A DNA stretch of 64,000 bases from Lentilactobacillus sunkii DSM 19904 (lineage in GTDB: Bacteria > Bacillota > Bacilli > Lactobacillales > Lactobacillaceae), in assembly GCF_001435575.1 (NCBI RefSeq), contig NZ_AZEA01000001.1, positions 1-64,000 on the forward strand, read 5' to 3'. Position numbers and translations under genes: made by a program. Positions 25,541-37,081 of the stretch are shown here, piece by piece; the first letter of the stretch is position 1, and each line of letters opens with the position of its first letter. Below the pieces are notes generated by a model, which saw nothing but the letters and a program-made list of their open reading frames with translations, did not search any database and was not told the origin of the DNA.

Positions 25541-26653
25541 ATGGTTAGACACATTGCAATAATCGGTGGTGGTATTATTGGAGCGACTGCTGCCTTTTAT
25601 TTGAGTTATTTGCAAGGCAACAAAGATGTTCAGGTGACATTATTTGATGATGGTCATGGTCAGGCAACCAAAGCTGCTTCAGGTATTATTTCTCCCTGGC
25701 TCTCAAAGCGGCGAAATAAGCGCTGGTACGCGTTAGCCAAGCGAGGTGCGGAATTATACCCAAGCCTGGTTAAAGCAGCTCAGCTGAGCGATAAGGCCTA
25801 TCGTAAAACCGGTACGATCGTTACGCGGAAAGCTGAGACAGATTTACTGAATCTTTACCATGAAGCTCTGATTAAGGCTGAGCATACACCAGCAATGGGC
25901 CAGGTTGAATTACTTGATTCCAAGACAGTTCAACGAAGAATGCCTATCCTAACTCATGCCCCTGCAGGAGTTATGGTGAGCGGAGGGGCGAGAATTGACG
26001 GTGCTGATTTTGTGACCGAACTGCTGAAGCGCGCAGAAAGCAACAACGTTGAAGTTGAACGTGAACGAATTTCGGTGTTGCCGGATGGAACTATCAAAAG
26101 TTCATCTGGAGTTCAAAAATATGATGTTGTCATTGTTGCCACCGGAGCATGGATGCGCGAAACACTGAAACCTCTCGGATTGGATGTTAAAGTACGACCT
26201 CAAAAAGGCCAATTGATCGATATGACAATTCATACCGCCATCAAATGGGATAATATGCCCGTCATGATGCCGGAAAGCATGAGCGATATCATCCCATTTA
26301 ATGGTGGTAAATTGGTTGTTGGTGCAACTCACGAGAACGACGAAGGATTTGATTTAACGCCAAAAGCAGAAGCACGAACCGAGCTTTTTAACAATGCGAA
26401 GGCGTTTATTGATACCTTATCAGAATCTCAGATTACCGGAATGCGGGTTGGCACCCGAGCTTACACTGATGATTTTGCTCCTTTCTTCGGGTCGATTCCC
26501 ACAATGGGATCCTTCTTGGTTGGAGGAGGATTGGGATCATCAGGTTTGACGACGGGACCAATTATTGGTTATTTTCTTGCTCAAGCTGCACTGGGGAATG
26601 TAACTGACGATTGGAATCTTTATACCAAACCGATTAGTTTCTATATTAGTTAG
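25541..26653 (+). CDS. FAD-dependent oxidoreductase, DadA/glycine-oxidase type
   Basis: Flavoprotein of the D-amino-acid dehydrogenase/glycine oxidase group. The N-terminal dinucleotide site is IIGGGIIGATAAFYL, followed by a GIISPWLSKRRN segment and a C-terminal FAD contact in VGTRAYTDDFAPFFG and GLGSSGLTTGP. About 370 residues. I start at the ATG at 25541; an in-frame TTG 21 bases upstream adds seven residues without support. Its stop overlaps the end of the convergent RNase H-like gene by 8 bases. The substrate, and whether it passes electrons to oxygen, cannot be told. Confidence 0.88.
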   Translation: MVRHIAIIGGGIIGATAAFYLSYLQGNKDVQVTLFDDGHGQATKAASGIISPWLSKRRNKRWYALAKRGAELYPSLVKAAQLSDKAYRKTGTIVTRKAETDLLNLYHEALIKAEHTPAMGQVELLDSKTVQRRMPILTHAPAGVMVSGGARIDGADFVTELLKRAESNNVEVERERISVLPDGTIKSSSGVQKYDVVIVATGAWMRETLKPLGLDVKVRPQKGQLIDMTIHTAIKWDNMPVMMPESMSDIIPFNGGKLVVGATHENDEGFDLTPKAEARTELFNNAKAFIDTLSESQITGMRVGTRAYTDDFAPFFGSIPTMGSFLVGGGLGSSGLTTGPIIGYFLAQAALGNVTDDWNLYTKPISFYIS

Positions 26654-27038
26654 ACGCGTGTAGTGCCTGAATAGCCAGATTGTGAGCACCTGTATTTTGG
26701 TTGTCGGGGATCCATGTGTTGACGACGGTATCGAAATGGCTTTGTAAATCCAGCAGTTCATCAACGTACTTTTCGAAGTGCTTTGCATATTGTTTATTCA
26801 AACTGTCGGCAACAATTTTGCTGTCAGTATTGAAAAAGATGATTTCAGAGGGATTGATATGTAGTTCAATCAGTTTATTGAATCCGGTAATTGCTGCAAT
26901 GAATTCCGCTTCATGGTTATTGGTCGGCGCTATGACCTCTTTTAGTTGAAGCTGTTTGCCGTTATGGACAATCAGAAGCCCAATTGCGGTATGACCTGTA
27001 TGTTGATTCACTGCTGCATCCGTATATAATTTAATCAT
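26646..27038 (-). CDS. RNase H-like protein (EbsB-locus type)
   Basis: 130-residue RNase HI fold of the short Gram-positive type. Three of the four acidic active-site positions are visible (YTDAAV, NHEAEF, NTDSKIV). In active enzymes the fourth lies in an ADxLA stretch; here it reads AHNLA, so that Asp is replaced. It may therefore have reduced or no hydrolytic activity, or bind hybrids. It converges on the FAD oxidoreductase and diverges from ebsA, the usual lactobacillar pairing. Confidence 0.8.
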   Translation of the reverse strand: MIKLYTDAAVNQHTGHTAIGLLIVHNGKQLQLKEVIAPTNNHEAEFIAAITGFNKLIELHINPSEIIFFNTDSKIVADSLNKQYAKHFEKYVDELLDLQSHFDTVVNTWIPDNQNTGAHNLAIQALHASN

Positions 27039-27068
27039 TTATCTACACTTTCTTTAAGGAGTTTACTC

Positions 27069-27455
27069 ATGATAACCCAAAAGCGTCACTTCTTTTATCA
27101 GCCAAGCCCACTAAGCAGTATTATTTGTTGGAGTTGGACCTTTGTCATTTTTTTCATTGGCGTCATTATTTGGCTTGAAATAACCCATTTTCAATGGATT
27201 ACGTTATTTTTCTTCGTGTTATTTGCAGTGATCGTCTGGGCCGAGGTACATTTCCGGAGTATCAATGTTTACGACCATCAATTTGTTGTCAGCAGAATTA
27301 CCAATCCTCACTGGCTGACAGTTAATTTGGATCAAATCACTCATGTGACAACGTCAAAATATCAGTTGGCATTTGTTGTTAACACGAAGATTTACAGTTT
27401 TATTTTACCTGCCAATTCGGTCATTGAACTAAAAGAATTGATTTCCAACAAATAA
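27069..27455 (+). CDS. ebsA: EbsA family membrane protein
   Basis: 128 residues with two close membrane helices (about 19-38 and 43-62) followed by a cytoplasmic beta-rich domain, matching the EbsA family, sometimes named pore-forming protein without strong evidence. The name comes from the enterococcal ebs locus that affects surface exposure of aggregation substance. Its placement beside an RNase H-like gene matches other lactobacilli. TAAGGAG precedes the ATG. The role is unknown. Confidence 0.8.
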   Translation: MITQKRHFFYQPSPLSSIICWSWTFVIFFIGVIIWLEITHFQWITLFFFVLFAVIVWAEVHFRSINVYDHQFVVSRITNPHWLTVNLDQITHVTTSKYQLAFVVNTKIYSFILPANSVIELKELISNK

Positions 27456-27506
27456 TTCTGCCGTTGTTGTCCGTCGATAGTTATTTTAGGAGGGTCATTA
27501 TTCATT

Positions 27507-29168
27507 ATGAAGAGCGATGTTGAAATTTCCCAAGAAACTGCTATGGAACCAATTACAAAGATTGCCGGTAAGATTGGAATCACTGAAGATCAAATAGAAC
27601 AATATGGTAAGTATAAAGCAAAAATCAATTTTGACCCCAGAACTGAAAAAGCAAAGGGCAAACTTATATTAGTCACGTCTATTAACCCGACTGCCGCCGG
27701 AGAAGGCAAAACTACGGTTACAATCGGACTTGGTGACGCTTTAAACGAATTACATAAAAAGGTGGTTTTGGCACTCAGAGAACCATCCCTTGGCCCAGTC
27801 ATGGGAATGAAGGGTGGCGCTACCGGTGGTGGTTATGCACAAGTTGTGCCAATGGACGATATCAACCTGCATTTTACCGGTGACTTTGACGCCCTAACTG
27901 AAGCTAACAACACTTTGGCTGCATTGATTGATAACCACATTCAACACGGCAACCAGTTGAACATTGATCCACGTCAAATTACTTGGAAACGTGTGATGGA
28001 TGTTAACGATCGGGAATTGCGGCAAGTGGTTGTTGGCCTTGGTGGCCGGACTTCGGGAGTTCCCCGTCAAGACGGTTTCGATATCACTGTTGCCAGTGAG
28101 TTGATGGCCATCTTATGTTTGGCAACAAGCATGAAGGATCTCAAAGAACGGATCAGTAAAATGCTGATCGGCTATACCTATGATCGTCAGCCCGTTACAG
28201 TAGCTGATTTACACGTTCAAGGTGCGTTGACCCTTTTGCTGAAAGATGCCATTAAGCCAAACCTGGTCCAGACAATTGAACATACACCAGCCTTCATTCA
28301 CGGCGGGCCATTCGCAAATATCGCCCATGGCTGTAATAGTATTTTGGCAACCCAGGCTGCGCTTCACTTTGGCGATTACGCTATCACTGAAGCCGGTTTT
28401 GGATCTGACCTTGGCGCCGAAAAGTTTATGGACATTGTGACACCACGACTTAAACAATCCCCTGACTGTGTGGTGGTTGTTGCAACTGTCCGGGCATTGA
28501 AGCTCAATGGTGGAGCAGACAAGAAATCATTAAATGAAGAAAACCTGGACGCCCTCAAAAAAGGTGTCGTCAATTTGAAACGGCATGTTGAGGGTATGCA
28601 GCAGTATGGTAAGCCAGTTGTTGTTGCCATTAACAAATTTGCAACCGACAGCGATGATGAACTGACTTATCTTCAAAATTATGTCAGCAATGAATTAAAA
28701 GTGACCGGCACAATTATTAACAGTTGGGCAGAAGGAGGCAAAGGCGGAATTGATCTTGCAAAAGAAGTTATTGATGCTTGTGAACAGTCTGCCGACTTCC
28801 ATGAATTATACGCCGATGATGATGCAATCGAAGACAAAATGAATCAAATTGTTACCCGTATTTATGGCGGGGATGGCATTGAGTTATCAAGCAAGGCTAT
28901 GAATGCCTTAAAACGGATTAAAAAGTTAGGGTACGACCATTTACCAGTCTGCATGGCTAAAACTCAGTATTCATTTACTGATGATGCCAAACAGCTTGGT
29001 GCACCTGAAGATTTCAAGATCCATGTATCGGATTTACAGTTAAAATTAGGGGCAGGCTTCATCGTTGCCTTGACTGGAAAAATTTTGACCATGCCAGGAC
29101 TGCCAACTCACCCGGCAGCGCTGGACATGGATATTGATGAAGACGGGCGAATTACCGGCCTGTTCTAA
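27507..29168 (+). CDS. fhs: Formate-tetrahydrofolate ligase
   Basis: ATP-dependent formation of 10-formyltetrahydrofolate from formate, feeding purine and formyl-Met synthesis. 553 residues, with the P-loop [16 protein letters not shown] (about 54-70), [20 protein letters not shown] and the C-terminal [24 protein letters not shown] lies 13 bases before the ATG, a long spacing, but no closer start fits. It shares folate metabolism with the operon 11 kb downstream but is transcribed separately; lspA follows after 14 bases. Confidence 0.96.
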
Positions 29169-29182
29169 GAGGAGCGAATATT

Positions 29183-29623
29183 GTGCCAGTACTTTATATC
29201 ATAGGGATTATCGTTTTAATTGTAATCGATCAGTTGGTTAAGCATTTTGTGGTTGCCAGCTTAGCTCTTGGGCAATCAGTCTCGGTTGTTAATGGGGTAC
29301 TCTCAATTACCCGGATTAATAACACCGGCGCTGCTTGGAGTATTTTGTCCGGCCATCAACTTGTTTTCGTTGTTATCGCAATTTTGGCGGCTGTTCTTGT
29401 GACATACTTTATCTTTAAGTACTGGTCCAATGTTCAATATCGATTTGGGCTGGGACTCCTGCTCGCAGGGACCCTCGGGAATGTGATTGACCGAATTTTT
29501 AATAATCACGTTGTTGATATGTTTCAATTGGATTTTATCAATTTTCCCATATTTAACTGCGCTGATATGTATTTGACGTTTGGAATATTGATTTTAGCAA
29601 TTGCTATTATCAGGGAAAATTAA
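29183..29623 (+). CDS. lspA: Signal peptidase II (lipoprotein signal peptidase)
   Basis: Membrane aspartyl protease that removes signal peptides from lipoproteins after lipidation. 146 residues with four membrane helices. The catalytic aspartates are in the conserved GNVIDRIFNNHVVDMF and NCADMYLTFG motifs. GTG start at 29183 with GAGGAG 8-13 bases upstream. Followed by rluD with a 19-base gap, the common Firmicutes order. Confidence 0.96.
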   Translation: MPVLYIIGIIVLIVIDQLVKHFVVASLALGQSVSVVNGVLSITRINNTGAAWSILSGHQLVFVVIAILAAVLVTYFIFKYWSNVQYRFGLGLLLAGTLGNVIDRIFNNHVVDMFQLDFINFPIFNCADMYLTFGILILAIAIIREN

Positions 29624-29642
29624 TCCGAGGTAACCAGTAATT

Positions 29643-30551
29643 TTGAAAGAATATGTAATTAATGACACGACGGGGCGTTTAGATAAAATCATCTCCGAAC
29701 TTGATCCATCAATCAGCCGTTCACGGGCCAAAAACTTGATCGACGATGGCCACATTCTTGTAAATGGAACGGTTGAAAAGCCCAAGTACAAAGTAAAACA
29801 GAATGATCGGATTTCAATTGAAGATGCAAAACCTCAGCCAATTGATTTGGTACCAGAGAACATCCCCCTGGATATTGTTTATGAAGATGACGATGTCATT
29901 GTTGTCAATAAGCCCCAGGGAATGGTGGTTCATCCTTCGCCTGGTCATCCGGATCATACGCTGGTTAATGCATTGCTGTACCATAGTCCGCTTTCGACAA
30001 TCAATGGCGAGTATCGTCCCGGAATTGTTCATCGAATTGACAAAGACACGTCTGGACTACTCATGGTTGCCAAGAATGATGCGGCCCATAAGTATTTGTC
30101 TCAGCAGTTGAAAGAACAGAAAAGTCTGCGCAAATATGTTGCGTTGGTTCATGGACGAATAGGTGAGGATTCCGGTGTGGTTAATGCCCCAATCGGACGG
30201 TCTCCAAAAGATAGGAAAAAGCAGGCAATCGTTTCCGATGGGCGTCATGCCGTTACTCATTTTGAGGTCCTGGAACGGTTCTCGGACTATACGTTGATTT
30301 CATGCCGATTGGAAACCGGTCGGACCCACCAAATTCGAGTCCATATGAAGTATATTGGGCATCCGATTGTTGGTGATCCGTTATATGGACCCCGAAAAAC
30401 AATTAAGGGCAATGGACAGTTTTTACATGCACAGGAACTGGGTTTCGAACATCCCAAAACCCATGAATTAATGATCTTTTCAGCACCGCTACCACCAATA
30501 TTTGAAAAAACACTGAATAATTTACGATTAAACAACGCTCTAGGATCTTGA
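29643..30551 (+). CDS. rluD: RluD-type 23S rRNA pseudouridine synthase
   Basis: Isomerises uridines in 23S rRNA. 302 residues with an N-terminal S4 RNA-binding domain (about 12-75) and the RluA-family catalytic domain, whose active Asp lies in GIVHRIDKDTSGLLMVAKN. The start is a TTG at 29643 after an AGGTAA-like site. Its stop codon and last residues overlap both the terminator and the -35 box of the pyrR promoter. Confidence 0.93.
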   Translation: MKEYVINDTTGRLDKIISELDPSISRSRAKNLIDDGHILVNGTVEKPKYKVKQNDRISIEDAKPQPIDLVPENIPLDIVYEDDDVIVVNKPQGMVVHPSPGHPDHTLVNALLYHSPLSTINGEYRPGIVHRIDKDTSGLLMVAKNDAAHKYLSQQLKEQKSLRKYVALVHGRIGEDSGVVNAPIGRSPKDRKKQAIVSDGRHAVTHFEVLERFSDYTLISCRLETGRTHQIRVHMKYIGHPIVGDPLYGPRKTIKGNGQFLHAQELGFEHPKTHELMIFSAPLPPIFEKTLNNLRLNNALGS

Positions 30552-30568
30552 CAATCCGGCGTTGTTTT
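30531..30568 (+). terminator. Terminator of the fhs-lspA-rluD operon
   Basis: Outer arms AACAACGC and GCGTTGTT with an inner GGAT/ATCC helix, ending in four T. The left arm lies inside the rluD reading frame. Confidence 0.7.
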
Positions 30569-30576
30569 CATATTCT
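30548..30576 (+). promoter_or_regulatory. Promoter of the pyrR-carA-carB operon
   Basis: Consensus TTGACA, a 17-base spacer and TATTCT. The predicted start near 30583 leaves a leader of about 60 bases. The leader shows no PyrR-type binding loop and no attenuator hairpin. Confidence 0.75.
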
Positions 30577-30642
30577 GAAGTGGTATAGCATTTTGATGCA
30601 TTCTTTACGAATATACGTTACTCAATTAAGGAGCTTTTATTA

Positions 30643-31176
30643 ATGGGAAAGATAATATTAGATAAAATGGCTATGCAGCGGGCCTTAACCAGAATCACAT
30701 ATGAAATCGTTGAAAAAAATAAGGGTGTTGAAGATTTAGTTTTGATCGGTATCAAGACCCGGGGAATCTTTTTGGCAAATCGGATTGCCGACCGGCTCCA
30801 ACAATTAGAGAACGTCTCAATTCCAGTCGGTGAACTTGATATTACGAACTATCGCGATGATATTGAACATGATGCAATGAGTAGCGATGTCAAAATGTCC
30901 AACAACAAAATCAATTTTTCGATCGAAGGAAAACGGGTTATTCTGGTTGACGACGTATTGTATACGGGCAGAACCGTTCGGGCTGCACTTTCTGCAGTGA
31001 TGGACTTAGGTCGCCCAAAGAGTATTAATTTGGCAGTATTAGTGGATCGTGGGCATCGAGAGTTGCCAATCCGCGCTGACTTTGTTGGGAAGAATATTCC
31101 CAGTTCTCAAAAGGAAAAGATCAAAGTTTATGTATCAGAGATTGATGACAAGGATGCTGTTGAACTCATCAAATAA
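30643..31176 (+). CDS. pyrR: PyrR: pyrimidine regulatory protein/uracil phosphoribosyltransferase
   Basis: RNA-binding regulator that binds attenuator loops in pyr mRNAs when UMP is plentiful, with side activity as uracil phosphoribosyltransferase. 177 residues; the PRPP-binding motif [18 protein letters not shown] is intact (about residues 103-120), as is [15 protein letters not shown]. Normally it heads the complete pyr operon; here it is followed only by degenerate carA and carB. Lactobacillus plantarum has two PyrR paralogues and this could correspond to the second one. Its RNA target is not visible in this window. Confidence 0.93.
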
Positions 31177-31198
31177 TCTTGAATAACGAGGAGTCAGC

Positions 31199-32290
31199 AT
31201 GACGGAAAGATATTTAATTTTAGAAGATGGATCCGCATATGCTGGAAAGGCATTTGGATCACTCGCCACAACAACTGGTGAAATAGTGGCCAACTCAACG
31301 ATGAACGGTTACCAGGAGATTATCTCCAACCAAATCTATCATAACCAAATCATTGTTTTCACTCAGTCATCTATCGGAAACACCGGACTCGACCAAAATG
31401 CGTACGAGTCCATTTTGCCATCCGCTAAAGGCGTCATTGTTAGAGAATATGAAAATTTGGCAACCGATCACTTTAAACGAATTTCTTTGGATAGATATTT
31501 GAAGCAGCATAAAATTCCCGGAATTTACGATGTGGATACTCGAGAGATCCGTCATCACTTACAGAGACGTGGAAATATGAAGGCTAGTATTGTTGATGTG
31601 GCTGATGACCATGCATTTGATCAGCTTCATGCGACAGTTCTGACCAACCAACAAGTTGCCCAGGTGGCAACTCCCAAACCATTTCCTAATCCTGATGAAG
31701 GTGCCAATGTCGTTGTCGTTGATTTTGGATTAAAAAGTGGAATTTTGCGGGAATTATCACACCGTGATTGTAATGTAACGGTGGTTCCCTGGAACTTTTC
31801 TTCGGCTCAGATTTTGGACCTTGATCCGGATGGCATCGTTTTATCAACTGGACCGGGGTCACCGGCTAATCTTCCAAACTCTGTCTTGGATATGATTACG
31901 GACGTCCAATCTCAAGCACCGCTTTTTGCAATTGGTTTGGGCCATGAATTATTCGCATTGGCCAATGGTGCAAAAATTACCAAATTAACGGTAGAACATC
32001 ATGGCAGTAACCATCCGATTCGCGAAATTATTACAAACGAAATCTTTTTCTCTGGTCAGGAACAGGGTTATGCCGTTGACCCAAAGTCAATCGACCACGC
32101 CAAATTGTTCATTACCCATGTTGACCTTGTAAATGGGACTGTTCAAGGGCTCAGGCATCGGGATTACCCTGCATTCTCAGTTCAATTTTCACCAGATGGC
32201 GCTCCCGGTCCCAAAGACAGCGTTGGTTTATTTGATGACTTTGTGGAAATCATGGCAAGAAGAAGGGACAGCAATGACGATAGATATTAA
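31199..32290 (+). CDS. carA: CarA-like carbamoyl-phosphate synthetase small subunit, glutaminase triad lost
   Basis: Full-length (363 residues) homologue of the glutamine-hydrolysing subunit: an N-terminal CPSase_sm domain (about 1-150) and a class I amidotransferase domain (about 170-350). The nucleophile loop, normally GICLGHQ, reads AIGLGHE with Gly246 (codon GGT at 31934) in place of Cys. The normal QYHPEA reads QFSPDGA, so the catalytic His is Ser331 and the Glu is Asp333. Glutaminase activity is therefore not expected. The fold-defining residues (STGPGSP, EHHGSNHP, GYAVD) are kept. It overlaps carB by 17 bases and lies 22 bases after pyrR. It may be a structural or regulatory partner. 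Confidence 0.9.
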   Translation: MTERYLILEDGSAYAGKAFGSLATTTGEIVANSTMNGYQEIISNQIYHNQIIVFTQSSIGNTGLDQNAYESILPSAKGVIVREYENLATDHFKRISLDRYLKQHKIPGIYDVDTREIRHHLQRRGNMKASIVDVADDHAFDQLHATVLTNQQVAQVATPKPFPNPDEGANVVVVDFGLKSGILRELSHRDCNVTVVPWNFSSAQILDLDPDGIVLSTGPGSPANLPNSVLDMITDVQSQAPLFAIGLGHELFALANGAKITKLTVEHHGSNHPIREIITNEIFFSGQEQGYAVDPKSIDHAKLFITHVDLVNGTVQGLRHRDYPAFSVQFSPDGAPGPKDSVGLFDDFVEIMARRRDSNDDRY

Positions 32291-34775
32291 AAAAGTACTG
32301 TTACTCGGCGGCGGTCCCACAAATATTGGTCATGAAAATGAACTGGATGCTGCGGCGTTTGAACGTTTAATGGCTCTAAAAAAGACTGGCGCAAAAATTA
32401 TTTATGTAGATGATAATGCCTTTTCAGTCACGACAGAAGAAATTCAACCTGCCAATGTTTATGTCCAAGAAGTCAGTTTCCAGAACGTTGTAACAATTAT
32501 TGATAAAGAGCACCCAGACGCAATTATGGCAACAACCGGTGGCCTCAACGGCATGCAGATTGCTTGGCAGCTTGCAGAAAGTGGCATTCTGGCCTCAAAC
32601 AATATCACGTTATTGGGAATTAAGCCTGCCGACTTACGAAAAGTTATGGACAATCAAAAGTTACGGGATACATTGACTGAAATCAATGAAAAGGTCATTG
32701 CATCAAAAATCGTGGCGGATGATGACGAAGCAATGGATTTTGTAAGGGAAGTGGGTTTCCCGGTTATTGTTAAACCAATGTCTTCCAGCCATGATACAAG
32801 CCGTTTTATCTGTAACAATACCGATGAATTGGAAGATGCATTGGATGTCAGCTTTAAGCGAACATACATTAAGCGCTGCTCGATCGAACAAAGTATCGTT
32901 GGTTACAAGGAAATTGAGATGGTTGGGATTCGTGATGCTAATGGGAATAAAATCCTGATTTCCGGTATGGAGGATATGGATCCAATCGGAATTCATTCTG
33001 GAGATTCCATTATTTTTGCCCCAACTCAAACGCTAATAAATGAAGAGTATCAGGCACTTAGAACTGCCACGTTCAGGATTATGGATTCTCTAAATATTAC
33101 CGGAACTTGTCATGTTCAATTTGCACAATCCAGGACAGACTCCAACTATTTTGTCACAAAAGTCAGCCCGTTCTTTACACGAAATACAATTTTAGCTGCA
33201 AAGGCCACAGGCTATCCGTTAACCTATGTCTCCAGTTTTCTTGAGCTTGGGTATAATCTTACCGAGATCAAGTTGCCAAGCCGATACAGCAAATTTTTGG
33301 CGTTTATGGAGCCAACAATGGATCATGTAGTGGTTAAGATTCCGTTGTGGCCGTTTCGGGATATCACAGATGTTGATCAACACCTGAATACGTTGATGAA
33401 ATCCGTTGGATCGACAATTGGAATTGGCCGGACGGTCGAAGAGGCCATTATTAAATCAATGCATAGTTCTCAATTCTCACCACGAGACATTCTACCAAGT
33501 GTTTCTACGGTTGACGATGATGATGTCATTAATCAGTTGATTCATCCATTAGCCAGTCGAATACTAATTTTGATGGAAGCATTGCACCGTGGCTTCTCAA
33601 TTGATGAGTTATCCGAGTTAACGCAAATCGACCGTTTTTATTTTTACAAGCTCAATCAACTGCTGAGAGCCCAGGACTTTGTTGTTAATAATCCATTATC
33701 ACCGCAATCAATTGAGATTGGTCATAAATATGGCTTTGGTGATGGAATGCTTGCTGAGCTATGGAAAGTTAACATATCCAAAATTCAGCAAATGAATGAA
33801 AATTATAAAAATCATGTGACATACAAAGCAATAGAACCCAGCGCTGGAGAGTTCTTGGAATGTACAAATGTTTTTTATAGCAGCTATGAATTGGAGAATG
33901 AATCGCGTCCGTTCACCGAAAAAAGTGCACTGGTGATTGGTCGTGGAGGTAATCAGCTCGGGCCAAATTCGGCTGCGGATTATTACACATCGCAGATTCT
34001 CAGGTCTCTTCATAAATGCGGCTATAAAACGATTATCATGAATACAAATCCGAATGCGGTCTCACTGACACCTCAGCTGAGTGACAAACAATATATCGAA
34101 CCCATTCAGCTTGGAAATATTTTGAATATTATCGAGCTGGAAAAGCCGGATGTGGTTATTCTTCCGGGAAATCGTCACTATTTATCTAAACAGTTGAAAC
34201 AGTTCAAAGCATTGAATATTATTGTATTGCCGCCAGATCAAAAAATTGCAACATACAACCAAAAGAAAGCCACAACTGCAGTTGATTTGTTTATTGAAGG
34301 CAATGAAATATTACCCGTCACCACGATTTCGTTCGTCGGTAAAGATCAATTGACAGATTTAAGATTCATCAACGACTATAAGGAACCAATGGATAACTGG
34401 GAAAGTGACGAAGACAAGTTAATTGCCAACGCTTCTAAGAATATTGATACACATGAATGGCAGGGGCTTGTTCAGGTCTTGTATAATACAAATGGTGACT
34501 CTAAATACGAAATGACCGGGATCCGGCCTGTTCGGATCACCGAAACTGCCTTCCTAACGAAGACCACCGGCATTAATTGGATTAATGTCCTGGTTCGAAA
34601 GTATTTGGGAAAGTTGGATATGGTTTCTTTGAGAGAAGACTGGCAGCCAACAGAACACAAACGGTCGGCTATTATGACCGCTCATTTCCCATTTAGGGAG
34701 TTGCAATCCGGCCGTTCTGAAGGCACTACCAAACAGGAAGTCGGATCATCACTTTCATTTAAAAATTTTGAATAG
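32274..34775 (+). CDS. carB: CarB-like carbamoyl-phosphate synthetase large subunit, shortened and probably inactive
   Basis: 833 residues against about 1,060 in active enzymes, in one open frame. Start at the ATG at 32274 behind AAGGGA; the frame upstream is carA read out of phase. Residues 1-400 align with the first synthetase half, but the glycine-rich ATP loop reads SSSHDTSRF (170-178) and the metal-binding EVNPR reads KVSPF (296-300). The oligomerisation domain (about 415-545) is well kept (QLIHPLASR, ENESRP). The second half keeps its pre-ATP-grasp region (552-660) but loses most of the ATP-grasp; only remnants such as KYEMTGIRPVRITETAFLTKTTG (in part, about 745-766) remain. The allosteric MGS-like domain is missing. 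Confidence 0.88.
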   Translation: MTIDIKKVLLLGGGPTNIGHENELDAAAFERLMALKKTGAKIIYVDDNAFSVTTEEIQPANVYVQEVSFQNVVTIIDKEHPDAIMATTGGLNGMQIAWQLAESGILASNNITLLGIKPADLRKVMDNQKLRDTLTEINEKVIASKIVADDDEAMDFVREVGFPVIVKPMSSSHDTSRFICNNTDELEDALDVSFKRTYIKRCSIEQSIVGYKEIEMVGIRDANGNKILISGMEDMDPIGIHSGDSIIFAPTQTLINEEYQALRTATFRIMDSLNITGTCHVQFAQSRTDSNYFVTKVSPFFTRNTILAAKATGYPLTYVSSFLELGYNLTEIKLPSRYSKFLAFMEPTMDHVVVKIPLWPFRDITDVDQHLNTLMKSVGSTIGIGRTVEEAIIKSMHSSQFSPRDILPSVSTVDDDDVINQLIHPLASRILILMEALHRGFSIDELSELTQIDRFYFYKLNQLLRAQDFVVNNPLSPQSIEIGHKYGFGDGMLAELWKVNISKIQQMNENYKNHVTYKAIEPSAGEFLECTNVFYSSYELENESRPFTEKSALVIGRGGNQLGPNSAADYYTSQILRSLHKCGYKTIIMNTNPNAVSLTPQLSDKQYIEPIQLGNILNIIELEKPDVVILPGNRHYLSKQLKQFKALNIIVLPPDQKIATYNQKKATTAVDLFIEGNEILPVTTISFVGKDQLTDLRFINDYKEPMDNWESDEDKLIANASKNIDTHEWQGLVQVLYNTNGDSKYEMTGIRPVRITETAFLTKTTGINWINVLVRKYLGKLDMVSLREDWQPTEHKRSAIMTAHFPFRELQSGRSEGTTKQEVGSSLSFKNFE

Positions 34776-34779
34776 TCAA

Positions 34780-34830
34780 AAAAGCATTTCGACTAAGTGG
34801 CTTATCAGCCAATATTGTCGAAATGCTTTT
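34780..34830. terminator. Terminator between carB and rqcH
   Basis: AAAAGCATTTCGAC and its complement enclose an inner TGGC/GCCA hairpin, with T on one side and A on the other, fitting both convergent genes. Confidence 0.88.
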
Positions 34831-36535
34831 ATTTTCTTAATTTATCAACCAAGTCTTCATCTGGTGTGACAAATAAAGTTGTTTGGTTATCATAAATGAC
34901 ATACCCGGGTTTTGTTCCATTTGGTTTGCGAATATTTTTAACCTTTGTATAGTCGACCTGTACTTTTGAAGACTCACGGGCTTTGGAGAAGTATGCCGCC
35001 AGATTAGCCGCCTCTGCCAACGTCTGTTCGGATGGATTAAAGCTGCGAATAATAACGTGAGAGCCTGGAATGTCCTTGGTGTGCAGCCAGGTTTCCCGTT
35101 TATCGGCAGTGTGCATGGTCAGTTTTTCGTTCTGTAAGTTGTTTTTACCAACAAGAATTTCTGTGCCGTCAGTGGATTCAAAACGTTCCGGTTTGGCGAT
35201 CTTCTGACGTTTGTTCTTCTTCTTTTTATTTTGTTCATGGTCACGCAGGTAATGTCCCTGTTCCAATTCGTAGCGGATATCCACGAGGTCTTGTGGGTTA
35301 GCCAGTTCAATTTGTGACTGAATATTTTCGAAGTAATCAATCTCTTGTTGAGTTAGCTTAATTTGTTCACCAACAAATTTCACTGCATTCTTCAATTTTT
35401 GGTATTTTTTGAAGAACCGTTGCGCATTTTGAGAAGGGGACTGTTGATTGGAGAGTTGAATGGTGATCAACTTGTCTTCATCATAATAGTTGGGAAGTTC
35501 AATTGATTTCATCCCGCGATCAACTTTGTTAAGGTAGGTCGTTAAAATCTCACCCTTGATCCGATAATCATCCGCATTCTCAGTTTCTTTCATATCTCTT
35601 TGAAGTTTCTTCAACTTGGTTCGGTTTTTTTTGAGCTGTTTTTTTACAACTTGAATTAAAACCGATCCTTGTTCACGCACCCGATCCCGTTGCGCTTTGC
35701 TGGCATAAAAAGCATCCAATAATTCACTTAATGTCGAGAAAGTTTTATTTTTCGTTGTATCTGGATAGGGAAATGCGGTAAAATTAATCTTGTTACCTGC
35801 AATATGGCTAAAGGTTGGCTTTGGATTATTGAATTGTTCAAAGAAATCGTGAAAGTTTTTCTCAATATTTTCATCTTTATGCAAACTACTTGCTAATGCC
35901 AAGGATGTGTCATTACCCAATCCTTGGATGGTCTTTCGTAAATTATCAGCTAGCATGTCCACATTAGGAAAATCTGTTATTAGACTCTTTATTTTCGCGA
36001 ATTCAGTTATCGTAAATGGATTTTGTAGATCCTGCTTGGGTGGTTTTACATAGGTTGCGCCTGGGAGCAATAATCGGTACCGATTGACATCTGAGCCAAC
36101 GTGTTTGATTGCGTCAATAATTTTCCCTGAAGCTTGATCAACGAGAATAATGTTGCTATGGCGTGCCATAATTTCAACAATCAGGTCCAACTTTGTTTGA
36201 TCACCCAGTTCGTTTCTCGATGTGAACGTGAATGTCAAGACTCGGTCGTTCTCTTGTTGAGAAATATCAGACAGAATACCGCCACTCAAATGTTTCCGGA
36301 CGATCATTGTAAAATTGGTTGGGACTGCCGGGTTGACATATGGGACTTTTGTAATCTGAACCCGTGCATAGGTTGGGTTTGCCGATAGCAATAGCTGTTG
36401 ATTCTTTCCATGTGCGCGGATTGTTAATATCAATTCATTAGGATAGGGTTGATTAATTTTGCTGATTCTTCCAGTTTGCAGAAGATCAGTTAATTCATTT
36501 TTCATAGAATGGGTAAAAGAACCATCAAATGACAT
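34829..36535 (-). CDS. rqcH: RqcH/NFACT family ribosome quality control factor
   Basis: Cytoplasmic protein of the NEMF/Tae2 family that binds stalled 50S subunits and adds alanine tails to trapped peptides; often mislabelled fibronectin-binding protein. About 568 residues: NFACT-N domain (1-220), helix-hairpin-helix and long coiled coil (about 270-430), and the NFACT-R domain near 450-560 with TWLHTKDIPGSHVIIR. ATG at 36535 chosen because GTGAG lies 7 bases upstream; a GTG 12 bases earlier overlaps that site. The gene stands alone. Confidence 0.92.
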   Translation of the reverse strand: MSFDGSFTHSMKNELTDLLQTGRISKINQPYPNELILTIRAHGKNQQLLLSANPTYARVQITKVPYVNPAVPTNFTMIVRKHLSGGILSDISQQENDRVLTFTFTSRNELGDQTKLDLIVEIMARHSNIILVDQASGKIIDAIKHVGSDVNRYRLLLPGATYVKPPKQDLQNPFTITEFAKIKSLITDFPNVDMLADNLRKTIQGLGNDTSLALASSLHKDENIEKNFHDFFEQFNNPKPTFSHIAGNKINFTAFPYPDTTKNKTFSTLSELLDAFYASKAQRDRVREQGSVLIQVVKKQLKKNRTKLKKLQRDMKETENADDYRIKGEILTTYLNKVDRGMKSIELPNYYDEDKLITIQLSNQQSPSQNAQRFFKKYQKLKNAVKFVGEQIKLTQQEIDYFENIQSQIELANPQDLVDIRYELEQGHYLRDHEQNKKKKNKRQKIAKPERFESTDGTEILVGKNNLQNEKLTMHTADKRETWLHTKDIPGSHVIIRSFNPSEQTLAEAANLAAYFSKARESSKVQVDYTKVKNIRKPNGTKPGYVIYDNQTTLFVTPDEDLVDKLRK

Positions 36536-36612
36536 CTTATCACTCACTTTCGTATAAGTAGCATGTACTAGTATAGCGCACTTTCTTGGCTGATGCTAAG
36601 GAAGACACATGT

Positions 36613-36644
36613 TATTTGTATGTAATTATCAAATAGCGTATACT
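36613..36644 (+). promoter_or_regulatory. Promoter and likely operator of the MarR gene
   Basis: TTTGTA, an 18-base spacer and TATACT form the promoter. The inverted repeat TATTTG-N11-CAAATA (36613-36635) covers the -35 box and spacer, as expected for autorepression by a MarR dimer. Confidence 0.6.
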
Positions 36645-36667
36645 AATTTTTCGGAGGTCTTTTCATC

Positions 36668-37081
36668 ATGAAGGATATTCTTGTGGCACTCAATTCTGCT
36701 GCTCAAAATCATCGGTCTCAACTATTTAACATAACCAAGGCAACCGGATTGACCATTTCCGAATGGAAGCTGCTGACTCAAGTTATTGCCGGCAACACCA
36801 CCCAGGAAATGTTGTCTGAGACAACTAAGTTGGATATCTCCACTTTATCTCGGCAACTGAAGCGACTGTTGGAAAAAGAAATGATTGAGAAGACCGCAGT
36901 GGGACGTGACAAGCGCCAACTGATTTATAAAGTAACCGAAAAGGGCAGCAAGTCCAGCCAATATGTTCAGACAGAGATCGATCAGCTGACTGATCGGGTT
37001 TTCAATCATTGGACAGAAGAAGAAAAGAACTTACTGAAGATTTTGATTAATCGTCTTGAGAAGAGTTTGAATCGAATTTGA
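36668..37081 (+). CDS. MarR family transcriptional regulator
   Basis: 137-residue winged-helix repressor. The recognition helix region is TTKLDISTLSRQLKRLLEKEMIEKT (in part, residues 53-77), followed by the wing VGRDKRQLIYKVTEKG and a C-terminal dimerisation helix. GGAGG precedes the ATG. It lies 25 bases before the degV gene and behind a palindrome that overlaps its promoter, so it probably represses itself and degV. The ligand is unknown. Confidence 0.9.
   Translation: MKDILVALNSAAQNHRSQLFNITKATGLTISEWKLLTQVIAGNTTQEMLSETTKLDISTLSRQLKRLLEKEMIEKTAVGRDKRQLIYKVTEKGSKSSQYVQTEIDQLTDRVFNHWTEEEKNLLKILINRLEKSLNRI

Follow-up and report, generated by a model that had tools for sequence, protein, structure and literature searches.

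Why would a lactobacillus keep, directly behind the regulator of its pyrimidine genes, a carbamoyl-phosphate synthetase (CPS) that has lost the residues with which carbamoyl phosphate is made? The question is raised by the first 64,000 nucleotides of contig NZ_AZEA01000001.1 of Lentilactobacillus sunkii DSM 19904 (hereafter the window), where pyrR (30643..31176, + strand) is followed by a carA-like gene (31199..32290, +) and a carB-like gene (32274..34775, +). A first-pass annotation of this DNA had described three open frames, tightly packed or overlapping, with an intact phosphoribosyl pyrophosphate (PRPP) motif in PyrR and with catalytic residues lost from CarA and CarB, and had proposed that the pair is conserved rather than decaying. 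Each of these points is borne out here. The window pair is very probably a pseudoenzyme; that it acts with PyrR as a ligand-sensing complex is our tentative proposal for what it does.

The CarA-like protein (363 aa) is full length and scores above the cut-offs of its family models (TIGR01368, 352 bits). In the alignment with E. coli CarA, the nucleophile Cys269 is replaced by Gly246 (codon 31934..31936, +), the catalytic His353 by Ser331 (codon 32189..32191, +), and Glu355 by Asp, the last being usual in canonical CarA as well (16 of 17 intact family copies). The protein therefore lacks the Cys-His-Glu/Asp triad required of a glutamine-dependent CPS. We read the CarA motif and the CarB sites for 40 CarA copies that lack the Cys and for 19 (among them E. 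coli CarA) that have it, and glycine occupies the Cys269 position in all 40 (3 of them from another family). When 18 of the 19 Cys-bearing copies were used as the canonical set, leaving out genome G078, the only invariant residues lost in at least 90% of 28 short-type CarA were S47, N240, C269, Q273, T308, and H353, which we take to have glutaminase pocket roles in E. coli CarA. Another 31 canonical invariants are retained in at least 90% of these copies, and Gly at 269 is the only newly fixed residue at that threshold.

The carB-like frame shares 17 bases with the end of carA; a mechanically called start at 32133 would fall within carA, and 32274 is probably the true one. The CarB-like protein (833 aa) falls below the cut-offs of both large-subunit models (TIGR01369, 553 versus 1027 bits; NF003671, 530 versus 599). 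Its first synthetase domain is full length (pre-ATP-grasp and ATP-grasp; 32286..33266, +; PF25596 at residues 5-121 and PF02786 at 126-331) and its oligomerisation domain is present (33534..33764, +; PF02787 at residues 421-497); among the Pfam matches D2 and D3 occur once each and D1 in two stretches. The second ATP-grasp domain (34173..34703, +) is shrunken, with ~90 residues missing ahead of it and the allosteric domain absent behind it. The C-terminal 200 residues were considered as a new domain and rejected as such, as they align to this shrunken domain (hhalign, residues 634-810 to E. coli CarB 735-900, probability 89-91). None of the seven first-site positions (129, 169, 175, 176, 299, 301, and 303) and none of the eight second-site positions is kept. 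Both sets are complete in E. coli and in 17 of 18 Cys-bearing family copies, the exception being G078. The two complete ATP-grasp domains with metal-binding Glu/Asn that a working large subunit requires are thus missing from the window CarB.

The losses in CarB are patterned. Among 29 short CarB from seven genera (23 of them Lentilactobacillus), E215, G241, H243, and Q285 are retained in every copy. The Mg ligand Glu299 is replaced by a basic residue throughout (Lys in 28, including Lys296 of the window, codon 33159..33161, +, and Arg in one), N283 by His in all 29, and R303 by Phe or Tyr in all 29. Eight canonical CarB share 208 invariant positions; for 82 of these the canonical residue is gone from at least 90% of the short copies, and for 54 it is retained at the same threshold. 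From the residue roles in E. coli CarAB, we take the kept residues to be adenosine contacts and the lost ones to be phosphate, metal, and bicarbonate contacts.

Decay should have left its mark on such genes, and what was found instead is conservation. All 24 Lentilactobacillus genomes encode the short CarB in a single uninterrupted frame, the other 23 proteins being 63-94% identical, and glycine replaces the Cys in each of the 24 dead-pair CarA. Because dS (the synonymous rate) is saturated for most pairs, selection was compared by dN (the nonsynonymous rate). By this measure dead CarA evolves more slowly than canonical CarA in 7 of 8 Lentilactobacillus species pairs and dead CarB more slowly than rluD in 8 of 8, and in the L. 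plantarum genus, with five genomes compared, dead CarA is slower than rluD in 10 of 10 pairs. The sole dead-gene pair with dS below 1 (G115 and G264) gave dN/dS of 0.003 for CarA and 0.021 for CarB, with 0.020 for rluD and 0.011 for fhs in the same two genomes, so that the dN/dS measurement that the annotation had called for indicates purifying selection. Loss of catalytic residues, together with a fold and sequence under purifying selection, is a hallmark of a pseudoenzyme. One clearly broken short copy was seen, in G327 (L166; 93% complete, 7% contamination), where dead carB lies across four frames.

The annotation had also asked whether a second, complete carAB exists in the genome. One canonical copy was found elsewhere, with intact sites and divergent from pyrBC; its CarB is 36% identical to the dead CarB over residues 4-630. 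Canonical CarB is absent from 5 of the 24 Lentilactobacillus genomes and split in 3 (G001, G005, and G023), and PyrB is absent from the same 5 and split in one. All five of these genomes (G021 is 88% complete, the other four 99%) retain an intact dead pair and an intact PyrR. In G001, G005, and G023, canonical carB is in two frames and dead carB is intact; the split in G005 may be an assembly fault.

Beyond Lentilactobacillus, orthologues with like lesions recur beside pyrR across the Lactobacillaceae, as the annotation had suggested looking for. A dead or dead-like pair occurs in 34 of 40 family genera, 33 with the CarA Gly and one dead-like with Cys (g50). The genomes read from six genera (g12, g13, g42, g46, g47, and g48) hold canonical copies only, and since mostly one genome was read per genus, absence in a genus is weak evidence. 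The dead-pair CarB is full length (1054-1067 aa) in g11, g14, g34, g38, g44, g54, g57, and g50, 643-659 aa in g39 and g10, and 791-901 aa in the remaining genera. Of the 40 genera, 18 give a strong match (E<=1e-18) to a profile of the short-form C terminus, and 17 of these 18 have no PfkA match and hence look heterofermentative. We do not count this link as independent evidence, because it may simply follow descent and because the short forms of g41, g45, and g55 (847, 853, and 854 aa) were scored weakly or missed by the profile.

A concatenated tree places 41 dead-like copies apart from 18 canonical ones with branch support of 100. In a tree of CarA only, one dead copy (G067b) sits among the canonical ones, and fast-evolving rows may attract each other; a single origin of the dead pair was therefore not accepted. 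Two copies stand out for what they retain. In G078 (L148:3237-7561) CarA keeps its Cys, with Leu/Asn for His/Asp, and the full-length CarB keeps 3 of 7 and 2 of 8 site residues; we count this copy as dead-like, and it is a putative different route to the dead state. In G066 (L162:2903-7157) CarA has Gly and the full-length CarB has an intact first site (7/7) and none of the second (0/8), making it a candidate half-dead intermediate. Another family, f4, has pyrR, a Gly CarA, and a carB of 575-579 aa in G039, G047, and G054 (L059, L060, and L061). There pyrB lies between pyrR and carA in two of the three (L059 and L061), and each genome has a single CarB match, so that in two f4 genomes aspartate carbamoyltransferase (ATCase) seems to be present without a canonical CPS.

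The dead pair is commonly linked to pyrR. Of 66 loci (two genomes are counted twice), 52 have pyrR no more than 150 bp ahead of dead carA and 8 have it farther upstream. Ahead of Cys-bearing carA it was found that close in 0 of 18 loci, some of them truncated at the end of a contig or locus. In six loci a uracil-permease-like gene, its family tested on fragments of two, separates dead carA from pyrR (or rluD); CarB is full length in five of these and 643 aa long in the sixth. The window PyrR (NF003548, E 4.5e-80) is the only one found in its genome. Another hit (28% identity, E 2e-9) probably represents a different phosphoribosyltransferase, and a second PyrR corresponding to PyrR2 was accordingly rejected for this genome. 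Three matches to the PyrR-binding RNA family RF00515 at E<=0.001 occur in the genome (G000), one above the Rfam cut-off. One match lies upstream of pyrB, and the two below the cut-off precede a cytosine/uracil-type and a uracil-type permease. Family membership, PRPP motif, and PyrR-binding RNAs in the genome together mark the window PyrR as an mRNA-binding regulator of the PyrR type.

Upstream of pyrR lies a putative sigma-70-like promoter, TTGACA-17-TATTCT (30548..30576, +), which the annotation had called a consensus promoter. The site is present and mostly kept in relatives, with exact TTGACA in 17 and TATTCT in 18 of 22 aligned Lentilactobacillus upstream regions; the wording was slightly generous, as the match is 10/12 and the region in which it lies holds 16 such sites versus 12.8 +/- 3.7 in shuffles. 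A PyrR attenuator ahead of the operon was rejected, since an Rfam scan of 26000-37000 gave no match at E<=1, PyrR-binding RNA included. In G033 and G036, RF00515 matches do precede pyrR, and a permease-like gene is still within the operon. RF00515 matches (one above the cut-off, one below) were also seen in G002 (L093) and G007 (L095), ahead of an ATP-binding cassette (ABC) transporter with a binding lipoprotein; the transporter looks phosphonate-type by eye, and both genomes are without PyrB and canonical CarB. The gene order in the window is fhs-lspA-rluD-pyrR-carA-carB, followed by rqcH on the opposite strand, marR, and degV.

The annotation had further suggested a relation to the second PyrR operon of Lactobacillus plantarum, and a positional counterpart was found. 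Genome G293 encodes a pyruvate oxidase identical at 602 of 603 residues to PDB 4fee, presumably the L. plantarum enzyme, and from this one protein G293 appears to be L. plantarum. It has two PyrR genes, one preceding pyrB-pyrC-carA-carB and the other between rluD and a dead CarA (motif AIGLGHEL), 34 bp before it, with a CarB of 853 aa. If the PyrR of the pyr operon is PyrR1, the rluD-linked one is PyrR2 by exclusion. The published locus tags are lp_2704 for pyrR1 and lp_1782 for pyrR2 (PMC7911632). L. plantarum PyrR2 is reported to respond to inorganic carbon. Two PyrR occur in 14 of 14 genomes searched from the L. plantarum genus; in 13 of 13 a CarA shares 93-95% identity with the dead CarA of G083, and the Gly itself was read in 6 of 14. 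The same layout, an rluD-linked pyrR followed by dead carA-carB, is present in the window. In G293 the dead carB is followed by a gene for a 581-aa protein (L209:9564-11309) that has no Pfam match and, by eye, a membrane-like start.

We propose the following explanation for these observations. An old duplicate of carAB would have been left next to pyrR after the working pyrimidine operon moved off, and would have become fixed as a pseudoenzyme pair. CarA would have retained its fold and lost its glutaminase pocket; CarB would have retained the fold of its first synthetase half and lost its phosphate, metal, and carboxyphosphate chemistry, with the adenosine contacts staying in close relatives of the window. 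A CarA-CarB-like complex could then bind a small molecule (a nucleotide, glutamine, ammonia, or inorganic carbon) and report it to PyrR through direct contact, so that uracil uptake and, where present, expression of the pyr operon would follow more than the ratio of uridine monophosphate (UMP) to PRPP. Since complex, ligand, and PyrR contact are all predicted, we give this reading somewhat less than even chances.

Several observations weigh against it. In 6 of the 66 loci no pyrR was seen next to the dead pair, one genome with the pair (G062, 87% complete) has no PyrR match, and the PyrR tree does not cluster the rluD-linked PyrRs. Constraint on CarB is not exceptional: in all 8 Lentilactobacillus pairs dead CarB evolves faster than its canonical counterpart, and in 9 of 10 pairs from the five genomes of the L. 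plantarum genus it outpaces rluD. The adenosine-half pattern is weaker beyond the seven genera, as 40 dead CarB keep E215 in 39, H243 in 35, and Q285 in 23, and the E299 place is basic in 26 and has remained Glu in 7. The residue at Arg303, which is Phe or Tyr in every short copy, is still Arg in 8 of the 40. These counts leave out G040, where CarB is intact, CarA was not collected, and the copy is absent from the trees. An AlphaFold prediction on 14 Lentilactobacillus rows reached a mean pLDDT (predicted local distance difference test score) of 47, below usable quality.

A more specific form of the proposal would give dead CarAB the missing part of inorganic-carbon (or carbon-nitrogen) sensor in the PyrR2 response, so that an enzyme which once used bicarbonate would now be a receptor setting PyrR activity. 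The biotin-carboxylase counterpart of Arg303 presumably binds bicarbonate, and replacement of this residue speaks against bicarbonate in the old site. Although the L. plantarum operon is tied to the reported response, we therefore regard inorganic carbon as an unlikely signal.

Other roles have to be weighed against a sensor acting with PyrR. The pair might have taken on a new catalytic reaction, as a neofunctionalised enzyme (ATP-grasp or amidotransferase-like) for which pyrR is only a travelling companion. The uniform change of E299 to Lys or Arg and of N283 to His in the 29 short copies looks selected, not neutral, and the six loci without adjacent pyrR agree with such a history. However, no newly fixed CarA residue besides Gly269 accompanies these changes, and the Gly-rich loop and metal ligand of the ATP site are lost in relatives of the window; we consider a new reaction unlikely.

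A function unrelated to pyrimidines, in structure or storage rather than signalling and perhaps connected with the rqcH or rluD products, is suggested by rluD, which is still upstream in the six dead-carA loci without pyrR. The same place holds pyrR-pyrB-pyrC-carA-carB in five genera with canonical copies (g12, g13, g42, g47, and g48; genomes G034, G035, G070, G075, and G076), so that the dead pair appears to have stayed behind and its neighbours are explained by ancestry alone. This alternative seems to us quite improbable.

A subunit-like modulator of canonical CPS or of ATCase would make sense of the shared fold family and of the 19 Lentilactobacillus genomes (three with a split gene) that have a canonical CPS, and modulation of an active CPS was one of the roles offered by the first-pass annotation. 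As a general role it is not supported. The five Lentilactobacillus genomes described above, together with G060, G069, and G079 from other genera, keep the dead pair without canonical CarB and PyrB, and G065 keeps it without PyrB and with only a C-terminal piece of CarB; the job of the pair therefore cannot be only modulation of an active CPS, and we assign this rival very little probability. That the genes are a duplicate in decay, or encode a CPS still working with ammonia, is scarcely credible, and both ideas were rejected for the window pair, as was an assembly error. In E. coli CarA the Cys-to-Gly change by itself leaves the ammonia reaction intact, and G066 keeps its first CarB site, but frames are open in 24 of 24 genomes under purifying selection and both window CarB sites are destroyed, the second by deletion.

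In the open-licence literature searched, we found no description of a dead carAB pair and none of a sensor for the reported carbon-dioxide response of PyrR2. Naming by homology alone would label the dead genes carbamoyl-phosphate synthetase and could lead to wrong predictions that lactobacilli are prototrophic for pyrimidines and arginine. A pseudoenzyme derived from a central enzyme is retained in most genera of the family, in an operon with the regulator of the pathway, and it offers a concrete way to test the PyrR2 response; were it an inorganic-carbon sensor, a receptor would have persisted in much of the Lactobacillaceae, even where its parent pathway has been lost.

The window pair can be compared with four known systems. 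It is homologous with canonical CarAB (PyrAaAb) over CarA and over CarB residues 3-631 and differs from it in lacking the catalytic residues and the allosteric domain and in its shrunken second ATP-grasp domain. With L. plantarum PyrR2 (lp_1782, identified by exclusion) it shares an rluD-linked pyrR directly ahead of dead carAB; in contrast, the window genome is without PyrR1, its rluD-linked PyrR is the sole one found, and the PyrR tree shows no special tie between the two. In vertebrate CPS1 the amidotransferase domain has no Cys nucleophile, as in dead CarA, but both synthetase sites are kept and the enzyme is active with ammonia; chains 5dot and 6uel, which we take to be vertebrate CPS1, were matched in our search. 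The Pseudomonas pseudo-dihydroorotase PyrC', a partner of ATCase, is likewise a dead paralogue of a pyrimidine enzyme maintained by selection. Unlike PyrC', the lactobacillar pair outlives both ATCase and CPS in some genomes, and so it is no mere assembly partner.

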